Positions 1 to 13,429 of a stretch of DNA of 54,326 bases are shown here, piece by piece. Below the pieces are notes generated by a model. That model was not told where the DNA came from. It ran no database searches and worked only from the letters and a program-made list of their open reading frames with translations. Made by a program: the position numbers and the translations under genes. Source of the stretch: Bacteriovoracaceae bacterium (GTDB lineage: Bacteria; Bdellovibrionota; Bacteriovoracia; Bacteriovoracales; Bacteriovoracaceae); assembly GCA_023954635.1 (NCBI GenBank), contig JAGSHI010000008.1:1-54326 (forward strand), given 5' to 3'. Numbering within the stretch: position 1 is the first letter of the stretch; every line of letters starts with the position of its first letter.

Positions 1-369
1 AATACTAGAAAGAAGAATTCCTTTCCAAAGCTTTGGATTTTCTTTTTCATCTTCTACAGTATACGAAGCGTCTTCTTCAGTGGCCTGAACTTGTCCTTGA
101 GGAACTGTTCCAACTCCAGGAGTAACATCGTCTCCACCACCTGTGCCGTTACTTCCGTCAGTTCCATTTCCACCATCAGTTCCTGTTCCGTTGCCGCCAT
201 CTGTCCCATTACTTCCGTTATTACCATTATTACCATTATTACCATTGTTCCCATTATTTCCATCAACGGCATGGGCATTGGAAAAACCAAATCCTAGTGA
301 GTTGTAACTGATACTCACTTGGAGGTGCAGTAAACAAAAAGCGACAACAAATGTAATAAGCGTTTTCAT
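1..369 (-). CDS. Secreted collagen-like Gly-X-Y protein, 3' end cut by window edge
   Basis: The minus-strand frame opens with an ATG at 369 and runs without a stop to base 1, so 123 codons are visible and the C-terminus is outside the window. A strong Shine-Dalgarno (AGGAGAGG) sits just upstream of the ATG. The product has a hydrophobic N-terminal signal sequence (about residues 1-34, ending in NAHA). A low-complexity stretch follows with Gly at every third residue (repeated GNN, GSN, GTD), then an acidic segment. Gly-X-Y repeats of this sort form collagen-like or flexible surface stalks in bacteria. The lipoprotein at 15815-16534 has a similar stretch. Shorter open frames on both strands at 54-297 are shadows of the repeat. 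Function unknown; a surface or secreted role is inferred. Confidence 0.75.
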   Translation of the reverse strand, partial: MKTLITFVVAFCLLHLQVSISYNSLGFGFSNAHAVDGNNGNNGNNGNNGNNGSNGTDGGNGTGTDGGNGTDGSNGTGGGDDVTPGVGTVPQGQVQATEEDASYTVEDEKENPKLWKGILLSSI

Positions 370-588
370 AATCCTCTCCTGAGGCAAATCGAAATTAAGT
401 AATGGAATTTCTTATCTTTTCGACCAAAAATCCATTCCCCTTAACTCATTATAAAAGGTGATAGAAATAATAAGGTATAAAACCTTTCTTAAATGTCTAA
501 CTAGCTGAAACTATAAAGAGGATTACAAGTTTTCAGGTACTTGATAAAACTTCGCTGTTGCCATGAATTGAGGGCGATTCTTTGGGGT

Positions 589-2622
589 TTATTTCTTAAT
601 CAAATCTATTAAAAATTGAGGGTTTTGGAGATGAGTATTATGGGAACAATTGGGGACGGATTGAGTTGTTACTTTTTCATTTTTTAAATTATTTATGACA
701 GTTAAAAACTCAATGTATTTTTGATCTTTTTCACCTGCCACAAATTGAATATTTAAAGAGCAACCTTTTAAAAAATTTTGAGCTGAATCTTGGTGTCCAG
801 TGCTCATTAGATTTAGAGCGGCCTTTAGTTCAGAGATATTCATATCTAATTTTGATTCTTTCATATCTTCATATTGAGTATGATTTTTTATGCCCTCAAA
901 AAGGGGAAGTGCATACCAATTATCGAGAAAGTCACTAAACTCTTCTCTAGTTGAGACATTATTAAAAAGATTCTTATCAGACTCAATTCTACTTTGCTTA
1001 TCTGTAGAATTTTCTAGACCTAGGTGAACTGATTCAAGTACAAGCTTGTTAAAGAGAGTAGGGCTTTGTATTGCCAACTGAAGAAGAATTCTCCCTCCCA
1101 TAGAATAACCAACTCCTGTTAAGAAAGGACATTCCAATGATGTTATAAATGTTGAGAGTTCGTTTAAAATATCATTTTGATCAGAGAATTTATTGGATAA
1201 AGTTTCTCCGTGACCTGGAAGATCAAGTGATATCCAAAAAATATCTTGGTCAAGCTCATTTAAAACATCTTCCCAGTCTAGAAGGTTCCCCATAAAACCA
1301 TGGAGAAAAAGACAAACTTTTTTTCCAAGCGTTCCCCCAAATTTGAAGTTGAATGGAGACGATGATTTTAATAAATGTAACTTAAGTAAAAATTCTAAAC
1401 TTCTCGACTCTGGTTTTAATGAGCTTTGATAATCCCATTTAAAATGAATAATATCTTTTGGGATCATATATTTTGGTAGTCTAAAATTGAGTTCATCCCA
1501 AATCGTAGGGATTTCATTTGGATGGCATTCAACAAAAGCGATAGGGACTTTAGAAAACTTTTCATCCTCAACAGGTTTCACGAATGCATTTTTTACAGAA
1601 TCTATTTCGAGTAATGCTTTTTCTATAAGGGTAGGATCAATGTTTTCACCACCACTGATAAAAACTTTATCAGTTCTACCATTTACAACAAGTCCATCTT
1701 GAGTTATTTCACCTAAATCATTTTGAACAAACCATCCGTCTTCAAATTCGGGAAGTTGAAATATCCCATGTTGAAAAAAACCCACCATTAAGGCATTTGA
1801 TTTAATCTTAATCTTATTTGAGTTATCAATTGCTACTTCTGTTCCAATCAGAGGATTTCCGGCAAAATTAGGGAGAGTTGGATTCTTATTAGAACTCGTG
1901 ATTTGGGCAGCCGTCTCTGTCATTCCATAACTTAAATAGAGAGGAATATTTTTTGTATTTGCTTTTTCAAGTAACTCTTTGGCCATAGGCGCGCCACCAA
2001 TTAACACAACTTTGGATTTCTCTAAGTTTGTATTCTCAATGGATTCTATTAATTGAGTAGGGACTAGAGAATAAAAATCACAAGGGTGATTAATAACTGA
2101 TCTCCAAGAATCTTCATAAAAAACACTTGCTCCACAAATAAGTGTTCTCATGAGTATCATAAATCCACCAGTATGATGAACAGGTAGTGTTAGGCCCCAC
2201 TTTTCAGACTCTTTAAGTTGATAGTGTTCAGTCGTCGCCAAAGCAGAATTAAAGAGAGTTTCAAATGAATGAACTACACCTTTTGGAGTTGAGTTAGAAC
2301 CAGAAGTAAAAAAAACAATGTTTCCTTCTGGGCAAGTTTCTCCAAATGGGACTTGTGTTTCATAAAGACTCATTAAGTCTGCAGGAGTATCTGGAGAAAT
2401 GAGAACGGGTGTGCAGTTTTTTTCCCATAGGGCCATTACTTGAATGAGAACTGATAATGGGTTCGTTTCTTGAATGACAATAAGAGTGTCTTTTGGAAAA
2501 TTAATGTTTTCTGATAACTCTAAATACTTCTCTTTAACCTGAGCATATGTAACTTTCTGGTCAGATGACTCAAAAAAGCAATTGTTGGCAAACTTGTCAA
2601 AGTATTGAGTAAATGGGTTCAT
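589..2622 (-). CDS. menE-menH: MenE-MenH fusion: O-succinylbenzoate-CoA ligase-like plus SHCHC synthase-like hydrolase
   Basis: This 677-residue protein joins two enzyme classes of menaquinone synthesis. Residues 1-410 are an ANL-type adenylating enzyme: ATP loop TSGSNSTPKG (106-114), SYGMTE (231-236), NGRTDKVFISGGENI (about 314-328) and a plausible catalytic Lys403. Residues 430-677 are an alpha/beta hydrolase with HG oxyanion motif (441-442), nucleophile elbow GYSMGG (Ser507) and a C-terminal SHNTH histidine. MenE activates o-succinylbenzoate with CoA. MenH eliminates pyruvate from SEPHCHC two steps earlier in the pathway. The adenylation half is shorter than a typical fatty-acyl-CoA ligase, as MenE is. 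It overlaps the 3' end of dinB by 26 nt. No other men gene is in the window, so the substrate is inferred from architecture; a different acyl-CoA ligase-thioesterase fusion is the alternative. Confidence 0.75.
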   Translation of the reverse strand: MNPFTQYFDKFANNCFFESSDQKVTYAQVKEKYLELSENINFPKDTLIVIQETNPLSVLIQVMALWEKNCTPVLISPDTPADLMSLYETQVPFGETCPEGNIVFFTSGSNSTPKGVVHSFETLFNSALATTEHYQLKESEKWGLTLPVHHTGGFMILMRTLICGASVFYEDSWRSVINHPCDFYSLVPTQLIESIENTNLEKSKVVLIGGAPMAKELLEKANTKNIPLYLSYGMTETAAQITSSNKNPTLPNFAGNPLIGTEVAIDNSNKIKIKSNALMVGFFQHGIFQLPEFEDGWFVQNDLGEITQDGLVVNGRTDKVFISGGENIDPTLIEKALLEIDSVKNAFVKPVEDEKFSKVPIAFVECHPNEIPTIWDELNFRLPKYMIPKDIIHFKWDYQSSLKPESRSLEFLLKLHLLKSSSPFNFKFGGTLGKKVCLFLHGFMGNLLDWEDVLNELDQDIFWISLDLPGHGETLSNKFSDQNDILNELSTFITSLECPFLTGVGYSMGGRILLQLAIQSPTLFNKLVLESVHLGLENSTDKQSRIESDKNLFNNVSTREEFSDFLDNWYALPLFEGIKNHTQYEDMKESKLDMNISELKAALNLMSTGHQDSAQNFLKGCSLNIQFVAGEKDQKYIEFLTVINNLKNEKVTTQSVPNCSHNTHLQNPQFLIDLIKK

Positions 2623-3781
2623 GAAATAAATTTAGCTGAATTGGGAGCGCTTCGTCCAATTTGTCAGGATCAATTTTAAAACCTATTCCGAGGAGGCGAA
2701 CAGGCTTACCTCCTTTTTCCAAACCTTGCTTGAGTAGGGTCATTAGTAAATCTTCAAGGTCTTGACTCCAATCGCCATTGTCCCAAAAACTATCAAACAT
2801 CTCTGAAGGACAAGTTCGCTCTACAGTTACAGTTTGAAAGTCATGAAACTTAACTTTTACCATAAGTGATTTTAAGATATTTTTTTTGATTTCTTTTCGC
2901 TTTTTGTACTTGAGTAACCTTCTGGCCACTTCTGGAATTAGTTCTTTTACTTCCTTAAAGCAAGCAATCCAACCTGAAATATCGTCACCAAAAGTTGTTT
3001 CGACACTCAAGCTCTTTCTAATTGATTCTGTTCGGATAGGACGATTATCTAAACCAAAAGAAAGCTTGTAGAGGTCTAGGCCATGTTTTCCAAAATATTT
3101 ACTCATATATTCAATAGACTTTTCTTGAATATCTCCACAAGTTCTAAGTCCCATTCTTTCAAGTTTTTCCATAGACTTTGGACCGACCCCAGGTATCTTT
3201 CTAAGAGGCAACTCTTCAATGAAATCTAAAATTCGATTGTTTGGAATATAAAGTTGTCCATTGGGCTTATTCCAGTCACTGGCAACTTTAGAAAGAAACT
3301 TATTAGGGGAAATCCCCGCTGATGCTGTTAGTTGAGTTTTTGTGAAAATATCATTTCTAATGGACTCAGCGATCTTATCTGGAGTGAACTCGGGGGTCAC
3401 AAGCTCAGTGACATCTAGAAAAGCTTCATCTAAGGAAAGTGGTTGAACTAGGTCAGTATAGTTATGAAAGATCTCATTGATCTTGAGACTTTCTTCTTTA
3501 TAAAGAGAGTGTCTTCCTGGAACTATTGTTAGATGTGGACAAAGTTTCATCGCCATCATTGAGGGCATAGCGGACCTCACTCCAAATTTTCGAGCATGAT
3601 AATTACTAGTACTAAGGACTGATCGTCTTCCTTTCCCTCCTATAGCAATTGGTATATCTCTAAGGTTGGGGAAGTCTCTCATTTCAACAGCAGCATAAAA
3701 ACAATCCATATCAATATGAATAATGTGGCGATCTTGGTTTAAGACTTTTGAAACAATACTTTTGGTAAAGTGGTCAGACAT
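2597..3781 (-). CDS. dinB: DNA polymerase IV (Y-family translesion polymerase)
   Basis: A 394-residue Y-family polymerase that copies past damaged template bases with low fidelity. The catalytic acidic residues are visible in HIDMDCFYA (Asp24, Asp26) and SLDEAFLD (Asp118, Glu119). The thumb helix-hairpin-helix reads LRKIPGVGPKSMEKLERMG, and the little finger fills the C-terminal third. The extreme C-terminus carries QLNLF (382-386), a good beta-clamp binding peptide. The gene overlaps lexA by 8 nt upstream and the menE-menH fusion by 26 nt downstream. It is therefore almost certainly co-transcribed from the lexA promoter and damage-inducible. Confidence 0.95.
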   Translation of the reverse strand: MSDHFTKSIVSKVLNQDRHIIHIDMDCFYAAVEMRDFPNLRDIPIAIGGKGRRSVLSTSNYHARKFGVRSAMPSMMAMKLCPHLTIVPGRHSLYKEESLKINEIFHNYTDLVQPLSLDEAFLDVTELVTPEFTPDKIAESIRNDIFTKTQLTASAGISPNKFLSKVASDWNKPNGQLYIPNNRILDFIEELPLRKIPGVGPKSMEKLERMGLRTCGDIQEKSIEYMSKYFGKHGLDLYKLSFGLDNRPIRTESIRKSLSVETTFGDDISGWIACFKEVKELIPEVARRLLKYKKRKEIKKNILKSLMVKVKFHDFQTVTVERTCPSEMFDSFWDNGDWSQDLEDLLMTLLKQGLEKGGKPVRLLGIGFKIDPDKLDEALPIQLNLFHEPIYSIL

Positions 3782-4400
3782 ATGACCGAATAAGACCTAC
3801 TAATATACCGGCAATAGAAAAGGCACCACTAGTCTGGTCAACAAGAATTGGTTCCATCGTAGAGTTGGCCGGAATAAGCTCAATATGTGAACGATGTTTC
3901 TTGTAACGTTTTACAGTGGCCTCTCCCTCAATAACCGCTACAACAGTTTGACCATTACTGGCATTAGCTTGATGGCGACAGACGATGAGGTCATCTTCAA
4001 AAATACCATCTTCAATCATTGAATCACCTTTAACTTTTAAGGCAAAGTAGTGATGTGATCCCTGAACCATACTAGAAGGGACTGGAATACTTTCATCGGC
4101 CTGCTCTATGGCCTCAATTGGGATTCCGGCAGCAACTTTTCCAAGCAATGGGACTTCTGTGACGTCAGGTGTGTGTGAGGGTGCAGGTGTTTCATCAACC
4201 ACCTTCAGGCCTCTTCGGGCGTTCCAATCACTTTCTAAAAACCCAGCATTCGCAAGGTACTTTATATAGCGCTGAACTGACCCAAAGGACTTAAAGTTGA
4301 AGTGTTCCTTAATTTCTTTCTGTGTAGGAGATATTCCATTTTTACGTGTGTAAGATGTAATATAATCAAGGACTTCTTTTTGCTTTTTTGTTATGCTCAT
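3774..4400 (-). CDS. lexA: SOS repressor LexA
   Basis: A 208-residue LexA. The N-terminal winged helix-turn-helix (1-70) contains NGISPTQKEI and SFGSVQRYIKYLANAGFL. The autocleavage site is Ala91-Gly92 in KVAAGIP, and the serine-lysine dyad is Ser127 (KGDSMIEDG) with Lys164 (EATVKRYKK). RecA-stimulated self-cleavage should relieve repression of its regulon. It heads an operon with dinB and menE-menH. The ATG at 4400 has no Shine-Dalgarno. A TTGACT-N16-AATAAT promoter ends 6 nt before it, so the transcript probably starts at the A of the ATG. The same DNA contains inverted and direct repeats fitting autoregulation. Confidence 0.95.
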   Translation of the reverse strand: MSITKKQKEVLDYITSYTRKNGISPTQKEIKEHFNFKSFGSVQRYIKYLANAGFLESDWNARRGLKVVDETPAPSHTPDVTEVPLLGKVAAGIPIEAIEQADESIPVPSSMVQGSHHYFALKVKGDSMIEDGIFEDDLIVCRHQANASNGQTVVAVIEGEATVKRYKKHRSHIELIPANSTMEPILVDQTSGAFSIAGILVGLIRSYV

Positions 4401-4434
4401 GAACTTATTATTGCGTAAGTTCTGCGTAAGTCAA
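4401..4434 (-). promoter_or_regulatory. lexA promoter with overlapping candidate LexA operator
   Basis: Reading the minus strand, a -35 TTGACT (4434-4429) and a -10 AATAAT (4412-4407) are 16 bp apart. The -10 ends exactly 6 nt before the lexA ATG. Inside lies a perfect inverted repeat GAACTTA-N8-TAAGTTC (4401-4422). ACTTACGCA is also directly repeated with an 11-bp period (4431-4423 and 4420-4412), about one helical turn. Repeats between -35 and start are what an autorepressor site looks like. The Bdellovibrio LexA motif as I recall it, TTAC-N3-GTAA, is not present here. Confidence 0.5.
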
Positions 4435-4444
4435 GGTTTTTTTT

Positions 4445-5278
4445 ATGAACGAATTATTTATTAAATGGAAAGAGGGTGCCACACTGGGTCAAGTTATCTT
4501 CACTCTTGGTATTTTTCTTAGCGCAGTCCTTATGAGATTTGCGATTAATCAGATACTTAAAAAATCAAAAACTATTCTAAGAGAAAATAAAAGAAGAATG
4601 ATGGTGAATACAAACTCCACTCTTTCATTCATTGTTTTCATTGGTTTAGTTTTAATCTGGTCTGATGAATTAAGAGACCTTGCTCTATCTGTGGCCGCAA
4701 TTGCTGTCGCAGGTGTTATCGCAACAAAAGAACTTATTATGTGTTTTACAGGAACGTTATATAAGGCCGGTAATAATGTTTGCTCAGTTGGAGATTGGAT
4801 AGAAATAAATGGGGTAAGGGGAGTTGTTGTTGATAAAACTGTTACAGCTACAAAGTTGATGGAGATTGGGCCTGGACATTCAACTTCACATTACACTGGA
4901 AGAATGATTACTATTCCTAATAGCTTATTTATTACCCATTCTACAAAGAATGAAAGTATTTTTAGAAAGTATTCACTTCATTCATTTGCTATTCCTTTAT
5001 CTCCTAAGTCTGATCATAAGTTAGCAAAGAAGATATTATTAGAAGCTGCAGGTGAAGTTTGTGATCCATTTTTTGAAGAGGCCTCAAAATATATTGGAAA
5101 AATGCAAGAGCGTGAGGCATTGGATATCCCTGAAATTGAACCAAGAGTAAGGATATTCTTTAAAAACTTTGAAGAAATTCAACTCATCTGTAGAGTTACA
5201 ATACCGACTGCAGACATTGTTACATTAGAACAAAAAATCAAGTCTAGATTTCTAGATGAATTTAAAGGCTGGGGCTAA
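4445..5278 (+). CDS. MscS-family mechanosensitive ion channel
   Basis: 277 residues with three predicted membrane helices (about 12-38, 55-72, 78-105). The third is an Ala/Gly-rich pore helix (SVAAIAVAGVIATKEL) of MscS type, followed by the beta-domain signature GDWIEINGVRGVV (116-128) and a soluble alpha/beta C-terminus. Such channels open under membrane tension and release solutes on osmotic downshift. It is divergent from lexA with only 44 bp between start codons. A weak AAGG lies 8 nt before the ATG. It may also be read as a small-conductance channel with a regulatory rather than emergency-valve role. Confidence 0.85.
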   Translation: MNELFIKWKEGATLGQVIFTLGIFLSAVLMRFAINQILKKSKTILRENKRRMMVNTNSTLSFIVFIGLVLIWSDELRDLALSVAAIAVAGVIATKELIMCFTGTLYKAGNNVCSVGDWIEINGVRGVVVDKTVTATKLMEIGPGHSTSHYTGRMITIPNSLFITHSTKNESIFRKYSLHSFAIPLSPKSDHKLAKKILLEAAGEVCDPFFEEASKYIGKMQEREALDIPEIEPRVRIFFKNFEEIQLICRVTIPTADIVTLEQKIKSRFLDEFKGWG

Positions 5279-5507: not shown

Positions 5508-5780
5508 TATTTAAATATACTTACCCTATGGTGCGGTGAGTTGTGATTACAGCAGTGTTTTGGATCGATTTATTTTAGTTAATAATGATTACATGATCTA
5601 TCTATGATGAACTTACAGTAACTTAGAGCACTTTATATTAGCATTGCTAATAATAACTATTAGTCGAAATGTAAGTAAATGTCATATGAAGAAGTGTTGA
5701 CGACGTTTTGCACAAATCATAGATTCATCACGCGACAGAAACTAGAGACAAACTAAATGAACTACTCAAAAGGAGCCACT
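5279..5780. other. Long intergenic region
   Basis: About 500 bp between the MscS-like gene and the next secreted-protein gene. Apart from the doubtful minus-strand remnant at 5262-5507 and the promoter near 5697-5725 I see no gene, RNA or repeat here. It is AT-rich with several stop codons in every frame. Confidence 0.6.
5697..5725 (+). promoter_or_regulatory. Candidate sigma70-type promoter
   Basis: TTGACG (5697-5702) and TAGATT (5720-5725) are separated by 17 bp. This would give a leader of roughly 50 nt before the ATG at 5781, which itself has a strong AAGGAG. The -35 matches 5 of 6 and the -10 matches 4 of 6 of the consensus. Confidence 0.4.
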
Positions 5781-6524
5781 ATGCACATCTTTAAATCATT
5801 AACATTGGCCTTATTTCTACTTTTTTCAGCAAATGCTCTTTCAGCAGTTGGTGATGTTAAAGTACTTCCATTTATTCAAGAGAGAGTTGAAGGAGCTACT
5901 CTACCGGCAGACTCTAAATATGACGAAGACTACTTTACGATAGGAAAAGTAACAGTAACTGAAGTTGAAACACCACTTGAGTACTTAGAAGATAAAGGTG
6001 ATGAGAAGAAACTTGGTGCAGTGATAATGACTATTGAGAAGCTAATTGCACTAGGTAAAAAGATCTGGGCCATTGTTGAAGCTGGTAGACCAGTTTTAAA
6101 CACAAATATGATGGTTCCTTTAAGCGTACTACCTAAAACAGATGACCCTGATGCTGCTTTTTATCAAATGGAAGGTTGGTCAGCACCTAAAGCTGTTACT
6201 TATAGAGTTCAGTATGACAATCTGTTTGGAATGACAGTAATCGCTTTTGATTACACGGTAATTTTTCAATATGCCGGAAAATATGAAGGTAAGGGAGCTT
6301 ACATTACAGGTTTAAATGTTAAGGCCTCAAATGTATCAGTTGCCTGGGGATTCAGATTTGATGCTAATAGTTCACTAGTAACTATTGCCAATAGAGGAGC
6401 ATCATCAAACCCTGTTGCTGGAGCAACAATTCAAATTGATTACAAGGCCGGAAGTGTTCTACGTACAATTGGAACATCAGAAGCATTTCACGTAACAGGA
6501 AAGGGTTCTGTAACAAAATATTAA
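5781..6524 (+). CDS. Secreted protein of unknown function
   Basis: I do not recognise the family. The ATG at 5781 is preferred over an in-frame ATG at 5757 because AAGGAG lies 6 nt before it and the product then opens with a clean signal peptide (MHIFKSLTLALFLLFSANALSA). The 247-residue product is rich in beta-forming stretches after residue 110 (for example TVIAFDYTVIFQYAGKYEG), suggesting a periplasmic or outer-membrane-associated beta protein. It has its own promoter candidate and a strong terminator, so it is monocistronic and perhaps well expressed. Confidence 0.75.
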   Translation: MHIFKSLTLALFLLFSANALSAVGDVKVLPFIQERVEGATLPADSKYDEDYFTIGKVTVTEVETPLEYLEDKGDEKKLGAVIMTIEKLIALGKKIWAIVEAGRPVLNTNMMVPLSVLPKTDDPDAAFYQMEGWSAPKAVTYRVQYDNLFGMTVIAFDYTVIFQYAGKYEGKGAYITGLNVKASNVSVAWGFRFDANSSLVTIANRGASSNPVAGATIQIDYKAGSVLRTIGTSEAFHVTGKGSVTKY

Positions 6525-8621: not shown

Positions 8622-8663
8622 TAAAATTTGACAATAGAATTTAAAAAGGGGAAACACATATTA

Positions 8664-9479
8664 ATGAAAAAAATTATGAAGCTTGGTGAAAAATCGATTG
8701 AATATAAAATCAGTGGTGACTCTGGAGAAGTACTAGTTTGCCTTCCCGGCCTAGGCTGTGACTTAGATCTCTTTACACCTTTTCGTCAAAAATTATCATC
8801 AAAATTTCAACTACTTCAAATTAATCACAGAGGTTTTGGAAATAGTATCTCTGAAAATCAAGACGACTATAAAATTATCGATTTAGCCTATGATGTCTTA
8901 GAACTATTAAAAATGTTAGAAATAGAATCCTTTTCTCTTATTGGTATTAGTATGGGGGGATTTGTTGCTCAAGAAATCATGAGTTTAGCGCCAAGTGGCC
9001 TAAAAAGTGTCGCTCTCTTATGTACAACTGGAGGAGGAGACTTCTATCAAAGTTTTTCTCCGATAAAAGATGAAGACTTAAAAAAACTATTCAATATAGA
9101 AAAAGAAAACAGAGATCTTCTTTCAGTTATTAATACAACTGACCCAGTTTTAAAAAATACAAAGGTTGATGTATTCAATGAAATTTTAGAATACCGTAAG
9201 AACTTAAATGTAAATTTAGAAGAATTAATAAAGCAAAATCGTGCAGCGACTGAATTCTTTGAAACAAACTTAGACTTATCAAATAATAATGTTCCAGTTT
9301 TTATAGGTCATGGTGAGAATGATAGAATAGTCCCTGTCGATAATTCAAAAAAACTTGCCAATGAATTAAAGAACTCGACTCATGTCATTTATCCAAAGAC
9401 TGATCACTTCTTTTTTTGGGAAGAGTCTTCTCATTTGAATACAGATCTTGAGACATTCTTTATGGAGAATGCACTATGA
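8664..9479 (+). CDS. Alpha/beta hydrolase, first gene of acyl-enzyme operon
   Basis: A 271-residue alpha/beta hydrolase. Visible are PGLG (oxyanion region), the nucleophile elbow GISMGG (Ser96 counted from the 8664 start), the acid in GHGENDRIVP, and the catalytic His in TDHFFFWE. The ATG at 8664 is chosen because an AAGGGG lies about 12 nt upstream and family proteins start near KLGEKSIEY; an in-frame ATG exists at 8676. No signal peptide, so cytoplasmic. It overlaps the next gene by 4 nt. Likely roles in this context are thioesterase or ester/lactone hydrolase; the substrate is not readable from sequence. Confidence 0.85.
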   Translation: MKKIMKLGEKSIEYKISGDSGEVLVCLPGLGCDLDLFTPFRQKLSSKFQLLQINHRGFGNSISENQDDYKIIDLAYDVLELLKMLEIESFSLIGISMGGFVAQEIMSLAPSGLKSVALLCTTGGGDFYQSFSPIKDEDLKKLFNIEKENRDLLSVINTTDPVLKNTKVDVFNEILEYRKNLNVNLEELIKQNRAATEFFETNLDLSNNNVPVFIGHGENDRIVPVDNSKKLANELKNSTHVIYPKTDHFFFWEESSHLNTDLETFFMENAL

Positions 9480-10474
9480 TAGGTCTTATCAGTACTGGTA
9501 TGTGGCTCCCAAAAGGTAGGGAAACTTCAAAAGAAATCTCAGTAAAATCTAATATCCCCCAAGATATTATTGAAACAAAAATGGGAATTATCGAAAAATG
9601 TAGAGCTCGAGAAGATGAACATCCTTCTATGATGGCCGTTGAGGCAGCAAAAAGATGTTTGAAGGGTATTGATCCTAAGACAGTTGATGCCATTATTTGG
9701 ACTGGAAGCGAACATAAAGACTATCCTGTATGGTCTGCTGGTATATATGTTCAAAATGAGTTGGAGTTGTCTAATGCATGGAGCGTCGATATGTCTGCGA
9801 GATGCTCAAGTAATGTCGTAGGTCTTAAATTTGCGAAGGCACTTATTCAAACCGATAAAAAAATTAATAGAGTTCTCCTTTGTGGAGGTCATAGAACTGG
9901 TGATCTTGTTAATTACAATGATCCCAATGCCAGGTTCTTATACAATCTTAGTGACGGTGGATCTGCAATGCTTGTTGGGAGAAATGAAGGAAACCCAATT
10001 AATGAAGCTTCTATAATAACGGATGGAGACTTTAGCTTAGACGTTATTATTCCCTCTGGTGGTACAAGGGCCAGTTCCAGTAAAGAACACAATAAATTTC
10101 TTACTGTTCCTAATGTAAGTGAGATGAGAGAAAAGCTAGCGAAGAAATCTCTAAACAACTTTTTGAAAGTAATCAAAGAAAGCGCACAATGCTCTAGACC
10201 TGAACCAATTGATTATCTTTCAATACTTCATATGAAAAAAAGTATACACCTCGGGATATTAGAGCAATTAGAATTAAGTGAAAATGATTCAACTTACCTG
10301 GACCATTTTGGGCATTTCGGGGCACCTGATCAAGTTCTAAGTCTTGCTCTAGCTGAGAAAGAAAATAAGTTAAAAAATGGGGACCATGTCGTTATGGCCT
10401 CTGCCGGAATAGGTTATACTTGGTCAGCAATTTCTCTTACGTGGAAAGAGAATTGTTTTAGAGGAACTATTTAA
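9476..10474 (+). CDS. KAS III (FabH)-like condensing enzyme with altered catalytic triad
   Basis: 332 residues with the thiolase-like fold of 3-oxoacyl-ACP synthase III. The nucleophile is Cys110 in MSARCSSNVVG, and a histidine (His252 in ILHMKKSIH) stands where FabH has its HQAN histidine. Where FabH and OleA carry the catalytic Asn of GNTSA, this protein reads FGHFGAPD, placing His280 there. FabH condenses acyl-CoA with malonyl-ACP; related enzymes make beta-ketoacids, acyl esters or amides. The exchanged residue and the operon of ligase, reductase and hydrolases indicate a dedicated pathway rather than housekeeping fatty-acid initiation. ATGA overlap with the upstream gene. Confidence 0.85.
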   Translation: MIGLISTGMWLPKGRETSKEISVKSNIPQDIIETKMGIIEKCRAREDEHPSMMAVEAAKRCLKGIDPKTVDAIIWTGSEHKDYPVWSAGIYVQNELELSNAWSVDMSARCSSNVVGLKFAKALIQTDKKINRVLLCGGHRTGDLVNYNDPNARFLYNLSDGGSAMLVGRNEGNPINEASIITDGDFSLDVIIPSGGTRASSSKEHNKFLTVPNVSEMREKLAKKSLNNFLKVIKESAQCSRPEPIDYLSILHMKKSIHLGILEQLELSENDSTYLDHFGHFGAPDQVLSLALAEKENKLKNGDHVVMASAGIGYTWSAISLTWKENCFRGTI

Positions 10475-10486
10475 AGGGAGCAATAA

Positions 10487-11212
10487 ATGAATAAGTTTAA
10501 TAATCGAAGAGTGTTTATTACTGGCGCAGCGAGAGGAATTGGTTTTTCTTGTGCACAATCTTTTTATGAAGAAGGAGCTGAGCTAGTTCTCATTGATTTG
10601 CCAAAGTTGGAGGAAACAAACCTCGAAACATACTTCCCAGAAAGAATGACTTACTTACAAGCAAATGTGACAAGAAAGGAAGACCTTTCACTCATTAAAA
10701 AAGAGATGCAAAAAGGTGTTTCTGTTCTCGTTAATAATGCAGGAATAACAAAAGATGCAACCTTATTAAAAATGACCGAAGAGGCCTGGGATCAAGTCAT
10801 TGATGTCAACTTAAAGTCGGTTTTCTTATTAAGTCAGATGGCTGCCGCTGAAATGAAAGAAAAGCAAGAAGGTGTAATCCTTAATGCTGCCTCAGTCGTC
10901 GCACATTATGGAAATTTTGGACAATCTAATTATGTTGCTACAAAGGCCGGAGTTATTGGGATGACTAAAACGATGGCGCGTGAACTTGGAAGATATGGCA
11001 TCAGAGTCAATGCTGTTGCTCCTGGTTTTATCGCGACTCCAATGGTTGATACAATGCCTGAAAAAGTAATTGATATGATAAGAGAGAAAACTCCTTTAAA
11101 TAGAATGGGAAAACCTGAAGATATTGCTAAGGCCTACCGGTATTTAGCTTCGGATGATGCTTCATTTATAACTGGGACATGTTTAAATGTTGATGGTGGA
11201 GTATCGATTTGA
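10487..11212 (+). CDS. Short-chain dehydrogenase/reductase, FabG/PhaB-like
   Basis: A 241-residue classical SDR. Cofactor loop TGAARGIG (12-19), NNAG (83-86), and the catalytic Asn108, Ser136, Tyr149, Lys153 are all present, so it should be active. FabG and PhaB reduce 3-oxoacyl-ACP or -CoA to 3-hydroxyacyl forms with NADPH. Placed directly after a KAS III-like enzyme, it most simply reduces that enzyme's beta-keto product. GGGAG precedes the start by 7 nt. Unlike OleD of olefin synthesis it is a short classical SDR, not an extended epimerase-like one. Confidence 0.9.
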   Translation: MNKFNNRRVFITGAARGIGFSCAQSFYEEGAELVLIDLPKLEETNLETYFPERMTYLQANVTRKEDLSLIKKEMQKGVSVLVNNAGITKDATLLKMTEEAWDQVIDVNLKSVFLLSQMAAAEMKEKQEGVILNAASVVAHYGNFGQSNYVATKAGVIGMTKTMARELGRYGIRVNAVAPGFIATPMVDTMPEKVIDMIREKTPLNRMGKPEDIAKAYRYLASDDASFITGTCLNVDGGVSI

Positions 11213-12009
11213 ATCATATCCACTTCAAGGTAGATAGATGTAATAATCCTTCAGCTCCATGGCTTATTTTTGTGAATGGTTTACTCGCAACATTAGAAAG
11301 CTGGGATGAACATGTTAATCTTCTATCCAATGACTTTAACATTCTCAGGTACGATGGATTAGGGCAGGGAAAGTCATCTGATATCAATGGATCAATTAAA
11401 TTAAGTGATCAAGTAAATGTGTTAAATGATCTTCTACAAGATCAAAATATATCTAAAGCAAATTTTGTAGGATTATCTAATGGTGCAAGGGTTACTTTAG
11501 AGTTCTCAACGCTCTATACAGATAAAATTGATAAACAAATTATTGTAGCTGGTTATGCTAAAGTCGATCGTCATATTCAAAGTGTTCTTGAATCATGGAG
11601 AGATGCCCATCTTCAAGGTGGAGCTGACCTCAGGTTTAGTATTGCTCTTCCATGGATATGGGGAAAGTCTACGTTAATCAAGAACCAATCTTTGATTCCT
11701 CTCTTTAGAAAACTCGCAAAAAACTGGAAAGAATCAAATGTCCTAGAGTTAATTAATTCTGGTATGTCGGGTGACATAGATTTATCAAAAATAAAAAGTA
11801 AAACACTTTACCTTACGGGAGAAGAAGATCTATTAACTCCCATAAAGTTACAAAATGAAATGCATGAGTCTACTTTGGGATCAAATATTGAGCTAATGGC
11901 AGGTGGGCATGCTTGCTTGCTAGAACACCCAATTGAGGCAGCTCAAATAATACGTAGGTACCTTCTAAAGGAGAACTTCAATGAGTTGGATCTCATTTCT
12001 AGACAATAA
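11209..12009 (+). CDS. Second alpha/beta hydrolase of the operon (TTG start)
   Basis: 266 residues. The TTG at 11209 overlaps the upstream stop (TTGA) and has GGTGGAG before it. Nucleophile elbow GLSNG gives Ser90; the acid is in TGEEDLLTP and the His in GGHACLLEHP. The first half of the hydrolase core resembles 3-oxoadipate enol-lactonase-type enzymes (YDGLGQGKSS). The nucleophile is serine, not the aspartate of OleB. It overlaps the ligase gene by 29 nt, implying translational coupling. A thioesterase, esterase or lactonase acting on the operon's acyl product is the likely role. Confidence 0.85.
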   Translation: MNHIHFKVDRCNNPSAPWLIFVNGLLATLESWDEHVNLLSNDFNILRYDGLGQGKSSDINGSIKLSDQVNVLNDLLQDQNISKANFVGLSNGARVTLEFSTLYTDKIDKQIIVAGYAKVDRHIQSVLESWRDAHLQGGADLRFSIALPWIWGKSTLIKNQSLIPLFRKLAKNWKESNVLELINSGMSGDIDLSKIKSKTLYLTGEEDLLTPIKLQNEMHESTLGSNIELMAGGHACLLEHPIEAAQIIRRYLLKENFNELDLISRQ

Positions 12010-13429
12010 TGAAAAGAGTTGTCCTGAAAAGTTTGCTATTGTTGAACAGAAGTCGGGGACTCGATTAAGCTTTAGAGAACTTAATAATAAAACAAAACAA
12101 TGGGCCTTTTGGTTATGTGAGAAGGGAGTTAAGAAGGGTGATGTTGTTTGCTTTCTCTCAACGAACTCTAAAGAACACTTATTATTACTCTTTGCTTGCT
12201 CTAAACTTGGAGCAATCTTATCACCACTTAATTTTCGTCTGTCCAAGCGTGAATTAGAAGATCAAGTAGCTTTTTCTCACTCTAAACTTACTCTAACTAC
12301 AAGTGAATTCACGGACTCCATTGAGAAATCTGTAAATATAGAAAATATACATTTGTCTGAAGAGTCTTTTGAAGAGGATTATTCAAATAATAAGAACCCT
12401 GTATTGATGCTGTTTACAAGCGGAAGTACCGGACAACCAAAAGGTGTTCTTTTCCATGGTGAAATGATTTTAAAGAATAACTTAATGACTTCAAGAGAGT
12501 GGGGACTTTTAACAGAAGATATAACTTTAGTTGAAACTCCATTCTTTCATACAGGTGGTTATAATGTTCTTTGCCTTCCTCTCTTGTCTATAGGTGGACA
12601 AGTCATAATTGCAGAGAAGTTCGAACCACAAAATGTCATTGATACTTGGAATCGGTATAAAGTAACTGTTTATTTTGGTGTGCCTACTATGTTTCAAAGC
12701 ATACTTTCACAAGGCGTGAATACGGATGATGTAAATTCTCTAAGGTTTTGTGTTTCAGGAGGAGCTTCGATCTCAAAAGAGACCATAATAAAATTTCAGA
12801 ACCTAGGTGTTATGTTCAAGCAGGGATTTGGACTTACAGAAGTTGGTCCTAACTGTTTTATTTTAGACAGTCATGAAGCCTTGAGAAAACAAGGGAGTAT
12901 TGGAAAACCAATGCCGCATTCAATGACTAAAGTACTTTCCAAAGATCTAAAAGAGGTAAGTGCTAATGAACCTGGTGAATTGTTAATCAAGGGAGAGCAT
13001 TTATGTCTAGGTTATTACAAAAATGAAAACTTGTTTAAGGATTCCTTAGATAGTGAAGGATATTTTAAAACTGGTGACCTTGTTAAATATGATTCCGAAG
13101 GATTTTTTTACGTCGTAGGAAGAATCAAAGATATGTATATAAGTGGTGGTGAAAATGTATACCCCGGAGAAGTCGAAAGAGTTATTAATGATCACCCCTC
13201 AATAAATGAAAGCATCGTTATTTCAAGCCCTGATAAAAAATGGGGAGAAGTAGGGAAGCTTATATATACTTCTGAAATTGAATTACCAATAGAGACTATT
13301 CACTTCTTTTTGAGTGGGAAGCTTGCAAAATATAAATGGCCAAAAAAATTAGAAAGAATTTCAGGTTTTCCTTTATTGCCAAATGGGAAAATAGATAAAG
13401 TTCAAGTTAGAGCAGGAGCAATAAGATGA
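11981..13429 (+). CDS. Acyl-CoA ligase (ANL superfamily)
   Basis: 482 residues with a complete adenylation set: LFTSGSTGQPKG (144-155), GFGLTEVGP, YFKTGDL, GRIKDMYISGGENVYP and a C-terminal PNGKIDK (catalytic Lys470). A good AAGGAGA precedes the ATG at 11981. It should activate a carboxylic acid as acyl-AMP and then acyl-CoA. It lacks the extended N-terminus of long-chain FadD proteins, which suits short- or medium-chain or aromatic acids. In this operon it could feed the KAS III-like enzyme or, as OleC does, cyclise a beta-hydroxy acid. Confidence 0.88.
   Translation: MSWISFLDNNEKSCPEKFAIVEQKSGTRLSFRELNNKTKQWAFWLCEKGVKKGDVVCFLSTNSKEHLLLLFACSKLGAILSPLNFRLSKRELEDQVAFSHSKLTLTTSEFTDSIEKSVNIENIHLSEESFEEDYSNNKNPVLMLFTSGSTGQPKGVLFHGEMILKNNLMTSREWGLLTEDITLVETPFFHTGGYNVLCLPLLSIGGQVIIAEKFEPQNVIDTWNRYKVTVYFGVPTMFQSILSQGVNTDDVNSLRFCVSGGASISKETIIKFQNLGVMFKQGFGLTEVGPNCFILDSHEALRKQGSIGKPMPHSMTKVLSKDLKEVSANEPGELLIKGEHLCLGYYKNENLFKDSLDSEGYFKTGDLVKYDSEGFFYVVGRIKDMYISGGENVYPGEVERVINDHPSINESIVISSPDKKWGEVGKLIYTSEIELPIETIHFFLSGKLAKYKWPKKLERISGFPLLPNGKIDKVQVRAGAIR

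Follow-up and report, generated by a model that had tools for sequence, protein, structure and literature searches.

Quinone genes have been linked to the SOS response in Vibrio cholerae, where, according to the accessible portion of one study, transcriptional read-through induces ubiEJB together with the SOS gene rmuC, as observed by RNA sequencing (RNA-seq) and reverse transcription PCR (RT-PCR), and where the authors relate ubiquinone to the repair of DNA breaks and to stress-induced mutagenesis (PMC5963079). The genes lexA, dinB, recA, umuDC and SRAP count among the usual SOS genes in the part of a second source that was available (PMC8565304), and the LexA motifs given in the available sections are TTAC-N3-GTAA for Bdellovibrio bacteriovorus and the direct repeat GTTC-N7-GTTC for Alphaproteobacteria (PMC8565304, PMC3323433). 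Here we describe a string of lexA, dinB and a menE-menH fusion at positions 589-4400 of a contig from Bacteriovoracaceae bacterium (assembly GCA_023954635.1, contig JAGSHI010000008.1; the whole stretch of 54,326 nucleotides is called the window). The arrangement is real and deeply conserved, and it is fairly probable that lexA split a men operon and left menEH on the lexA promoter, which would largely explain it.

All three genes lie on the minus strand. They run from lexA (3774-4400; SOS repressor, 208 aa) through dinB (2597-3781; DNA polymerase IV, 394 aa) to the menE-menH fusion (589-2622), a single open reading frame (ORF) of 677 aa, and the overlaps of 8 bp between lexA and dinB and 26 bp between dinB and the fusion bear out the preliminary description of an overlapping, operon-like string. 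LexA comprises an S24 peptidase and a LexA DNA-binding domain, scores 193 bits against TIGR00498 (cut-off 111) and is invariant, among 13 aligned sequences, at A91 and G92, which we take to be the Ala-Gly cleavage site, and at S127 and K164, presumably the catalytic Ser/Lys pair; domains, residues and curated score thus all identify a LexA repressor. DinB reaches 426 bits against NF002677 (cut-off 256). A domain search divides the fusion into an AMP-binding half (1393-2622, residues ~1-410), classed as a MenE-type o-succinylbenzoate-CoA ligase, and an alpha/beta-hydrolase half (589-1392, residues ~411-677), classed as a MenH-type 2-succinyl-6-hydroxy-2,4-cyclohexadiene-1-carboxylate (SHCHC) synthase, both likewise on the minus strand. 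Each of the top five PDB matches to the first half is a 2-succinylbenzoate-CoA ligase, and the best match to the second is 4myd/4mys, annotated as SHCHC synthase. Additionally, at least 90% of 37 fusions from the order retain each of S107, G108, K114 and K403 of the MenE half; the first three are presumably the adenylate-forming motif and the last its C-terminal lysine. The same level of conservation was found in the MenH half, aligned to 4myd, for S507, D633 and H661, which we take to be the MenH Ser-Asp-His triad, for R511, R545 and W569, presumably the Arg/Trp pocket residues, and for Y570. Matches and residues together support the MenE-MenH-type fusion recognized earlier. The MenE assignment is thus based on residues, nearest solved enzymes and gene context and does not make this half a TIGR01923 equivalog by score; the second half is classed as MenH-type from residues and context, again not by score.

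The rest of the pathway in this genome lies on contig C181, where ispB is divergent from a ubiE-menF-menD-menA-menC operon that contains neither menE nor menH (menD is above its cut-off, and the remaining gene names come from synteny and reading of the proteins). The fusion would supply the menE and menH steps absent from this operon. Menaquinone synthesis is the likely role of the fusion, since both sets of catalytic residues are kept and a men operon without menE and menH is present in the same genome. The remaining men genes named in the preliminary description were thus found in part: menF, D, A and C (and ubiE) are present on C181, whereas menB was not detected above its cut-off.

The linkage was followed through 129 genomes of the order, searched with the fusion, LexA and menD. 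Tabulated matches place menE after lexA, on the same strand and within 3 kb, in 43 genomes from 19 genera; reading of the fetched loci added G030 and G032, giving 45 of the 129. A hand tally of the 53 genomes with a lexA above 140 bits and a listed menD comprises 43 linked cases, five in which the contig end cuts the locus (G008, G049, G053, G076 and G077) and five unlinked ones (G040, G115, G118, G120 and G128). A second collection, of named records, overlaps these genomes so heavily that the two counts are not independent; its 80 lexA loci comprise 34 linked, 11 at contig ends and 35 unlinked, and among the linked ones are Bacteriovorax sp. BSW11_IV and an isolate of Halobacteriovorax marinus. 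Outside the family, a lexA-menE pair within 3 kb was seen by eye in none of the genomes with matches among 191 searched from the phylum (31 had a MenE match at E<=1e-20, 29 of them together with a LexA match, and these MenE matches may be generic ligases). Since the same gene order recurs in 45 of the 129 genomes of the order, the linkage exceeds chance and is no accident of one genome.

Comparison of the junctions suggests how the arrangement arose. G072 has a contiguous ubiE-menF-D-A-C-E-H operon and no LexA match in its genome. The order in G107 is ubiE-menF-D-A-C-lexA-menE-menH, with lexA between menC and menE, and G108, read from the contig start, shows menA-menC-lexA-menE-menH. One small and one divergent gene separate menC from lexA in G111 and G070, larger insertions do so in five g13 genomes, G001, G052, G078 and the g16 genomes, and in the genome studied here, G003, G047 and the examined g4 genomes the two men halves are far apart or on separate contigs. 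The lexA-to-menE interval has stayed closed: it holds only dinB (35 loci) or no gene (9 loci) in 44 of the 45 linked loci, menE is overlapped or directly abutted in 24 of the 45, the gap before it is at most 30 bp in 40 of the 45, the median of all gaps is 2 bp and none exceeds 106 bp. Of the 17 loci in which menC and lexA can both be seen, 15 have inserted genes in the menC-to-lexA interval, every time with at least one of them read from the other strand. Most simply, a lexA(-dinB) unit would have been placed between menC and menE, and the menC-side linkage would then have been lost; because the men operon seems once to have been continuous across the place that lexA(-dinB) now occupies, the odd neighbourhood can be explained without a functional link.

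A candidate promoter for the string lies directly ahead of lexA, at 4407-4434 on the minus strand, with a -35 element TTGACT, a 16-nt spacer and a -10 element AATAAT 6 nt from the ATG. It is the best promoter-like match (10 of 12) in positions 1-5000 of the window, where such matches as a class are at chance level (13 found against 14.0 expected), and the same layout precedes lexA in the relatives compared. As the -10 element is only six bases from the ATG, the lexA mRNA is probably leaderless or nearly so. Overlapping the -35 element, at 4413-4430 on the minus strand, is a putative LexA box, the direct repeat CTTACGC-N4-CTTACGC with an 11-bp period. Four places in this genome carry the exact repeat: lexA, recA (where there are three half-sites), the interval that separates umuDC from a divergently oriented SRAP gene, and a site close to a gene whose function is unknown. 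The reversed control with up to one mismatch has zero matches in this genome. The shared operator expected of an SOS (LexA) regulon is present at lexA, recA and umuDC. Three further sites in this genome carry two mismatches and were taken as chance, the reversed control giving four. With up to two mismatches, 60 of 65 matches in 1.26 Mb of fetched loci, a set chosen around lexA and men genes, fall at a lexA start, against two matches for the reversed control; among the named loci the box precedes 33 of 34 menE-linked lexA genes and 4 of 35 unlinked ones. The CTTACGC repeat is very probably the LexA box, and lexA-dinB-menEH would stand behind a putatively LexA-repressed promoter.

The lexA operator seems to have two dialects in the order, both of them direct repeats with a period of about 11 bp (4413-4430 and relatives; L212-L245): the menE-linked clade has CTTACGC-N4-CTTACGC and the unlinked clade has TACGGAAA...TACGG, often twice. 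An exact box is also found on contig C109 (L085:1501-1518), about 190 bp before the gene for a secreted-looking protein of 270 aa with no Pfam match, which is a possible extra SOS gene.

Taken together, we favour as reasonably probable an explanation with three parts. The fusion would be a working MenE-MenH-type menaquinone enzyme made from a common transcript with lexA and dinB under a LexA-repressed promoter; an ancestral operon of the order ubiE-menF-D-A-C-E-H would have received lexA, with or without dinB, at its menC-menE junction; and the menE-menH end would from then on have depended on the lexA promoter, leaving the ubiE-menC part free to move away. Repression at lexA promoters is typically partial and self-limiting, and in undamaged cells such repression would leave sufficient enzyme; damage to the DNA would then raise MenEH along with LexA and DinB. 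Co-transcription of lexA, dinB and menEH is favoured by the gene overlaps and the closed junction, and a simple scan of the minus strand found no terminator between the genes. The gene order suggests that DNA damage also raises one quinone enzyme, and an incidental induction of menEH by damage is likely.

Several observations weigh against this explanation. Both halves of the fusion score under the curated NCBIfam cut-offs: the MenE half has 241 bits against TIGR01923 (cut-off 330), in a match that spans residues 103-400 only, and the MenH half has 191.7 bits against TIGR03695 (cut-off 208.6). The profile search of this genome found no menB above cut-off, the only gene of the classical pathway (menF, D, H, C, E, B and A) that is missing; as menB is above cut-off in 106 of the 129 genomes of the order, both congeners included, and the assembly consists of 219 contigs at 98% completeness, the missing menB most simply, and probably, reflects a gap in the assembly. 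The candidates located on C161, C134 and C201 were rejected as MenB, lying at least 197 bits under the cut-off and having neighbours that were read by eye as fatty-acid or leucine-type degradation genes. The LexA tree (59 rows, with linkage set to unknown for G076, G053, G049 and G012) is poorly resolved, with 26 of 56 inner branches open and long branches joined; it was not accepted as proof of a single origin, since it needs a minimum of four changes of linkage state on weak support, and it is not contrary to an insertion of lexA but lacks the strength to decide which way the change went. Further neighbours of lexA, such as the divergent gene at 5757, are widely conserved too, and the linkage is not specific to menE. 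Finally, synonymous-site conservation over the last 80 dinB codons is unusually high, at 0.66-0.84 against 0.53 overall, in the three g14 genomes (L055, L080 and L151), and this conserved 3' end could hide a promoter.

The last point bears on the strongest rival, an own menEH promoter inside dinB, or inside lexA where dinB is absent, under which there would be no meaningful SOS control and the neighbourhood would be a mere relic. Besides the g14 genomes, it can draw on a promoter-like match at 3072-3044 and on the V. cholerae read-through genes, most of which, in the portion of that study at hand, also have promoters of their own (PMC5963079). The match at 3072-3044 is, however, the only one on the minus strand inside dinB and scores 9 of 12, again at chance level, and the check for an internal dinB promoter that the preliminary description proposed gave no obvious one; raised synonymous conservation of the dinB 3' end is absent from the three other groups (g4, g16 and g13), and the overlapping or abutting genes, the nine loci in which no gene intervenes and the short gaps before menE also speak against it. 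We regard an own promoter as unlikely.

It was also considered that selection holds menEH in the SOS operon since extra quinone capacity aids survival of damage through respiration, control of reactive oxygen species (ROS) or energy for repair. In line with such coupling, lexA, dinB where present, and menE remain closely joined even in loci whose menC side has opened, and a separate quinone-SOS link exists in Vibrio cholerae, which, as far as the available text goes, overturns the earlier statement that nothing in known SOS biology requires quinone synthesis (PMC5963079). On the other hand, a gene that lacks a promoter of its own would remain attached passively anyway, and lexA and menD are present but menE is unlinked in the five informative genomes named above. 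The search of this genome gave no box ahead of ubiE-menF-D-A-C, and the fetched loci had none near UbiE or MenF or before menE, so that most of the pathway would be uninduced. An adaptive quinone-SOS link is possible; functional coupling as such appears rather doubtful, and equally doubtful is the broader claim of an SOS control of menaquinone synthesis through MenE-MenH, in which damage would raise a quinone step kept in 19 genera, convergent with rmuC-ubiEJB of Vibrio, and the supply of quinone would recur as an element of the damage response. Lastly, it is highly improbable that the fusion acts outside menaquinone synthesis on a substrate other than o-succinylbenzoate or 2-succinyl-5-enolpyruvyl-6-hydroxy-3-cyclohexene-1-carboxylate (SEPHCHC): the sub-cut-off scores of both halves would allow it, and a second ligase in the window (11981-13429) outscores the fusion on TIGR01923 with 298 bits, but that ligase was rejected as the true MenE, its nearest PDB entries being fatty-acyl- and feruloyl-CoA synthetases while the top five of the fusion are all MenE, the second half is closest to MenH, and related menE and menH genes sit in the men operon in G107, G108 and G072.

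Around the string, the ORF at 1-387 on the minus strand loses its C-terminal end at the edge of the window; the relative of this ORF in G077 has 706 aa and a weak collagen-repeat match, and lies 199 bp past menEH. The gene at 5757-6524 encodes a 255-aa protein with no Pfam match and is a divergent neighbour of lexA kept in most menE-linked genomes. A cluster at 8628-13429 encodes a hydrolase, KAS III, FabG, a second hydrolase and an acyl-CoA ligase; G002, G015, G009 and G016 have this cluster as well, a few kb upstream of lexA.

The favoured explanation, a men operon split by lexA, makes this locus a deeply conserved and testable case of a repair regulator whose own operon carries a respiratory biosynthesis gene, and it shows that, where a regulator gene stands within a biosynthetic operon, the genes distal to it can end up under a promoter that is not their own. 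Together with Vibrio rmuC-ubiEJB, it would make quinone supply in the DNA-damage response testable in two unrelated lineages, and as a by-product it provides a putative direct-repeat LexA box for Bacteriovoracales. No report of menE-menH in a lexA operon was found in the open-access library searched, subscription papers being outside the scope of the search. Compared with classical men operons, the enzymes are the same and the contiguous ubiE-F-D-A-C-E-H order is seen in G072, whereas menE and menH are fused in 33 of the 45 linked loci and severed from the rest by lexA(-dinB). Unlike the SOS regulon core, to the extent that the source describes it (PMC8565304), the string has a central-metabolism enzyme as its third gene, and the box CTTACGC-N4-CTTACGC differs from both the Bdellovibrio and the alphaproteobacterial motifs as given in the available text of the sources cited above. 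The closest likeness is with V. cholerae, where quinone genes also follow an SOS gene in the same orientation and, in the accessible part of the study, are co-induced by mitomycin C; there, ubiquinone genes including ubiE stand behind rmuC and the effect is proven, whereas here menE-menH stands behind lexA itself, with overlapping genes and a predicted co-induction, in an unrelated lineage. The idea of a quinone-SOS link is thus not new in kind, while the placement of menE-menH in the lexA operon, together with a direct-repeat box, appears to be new.

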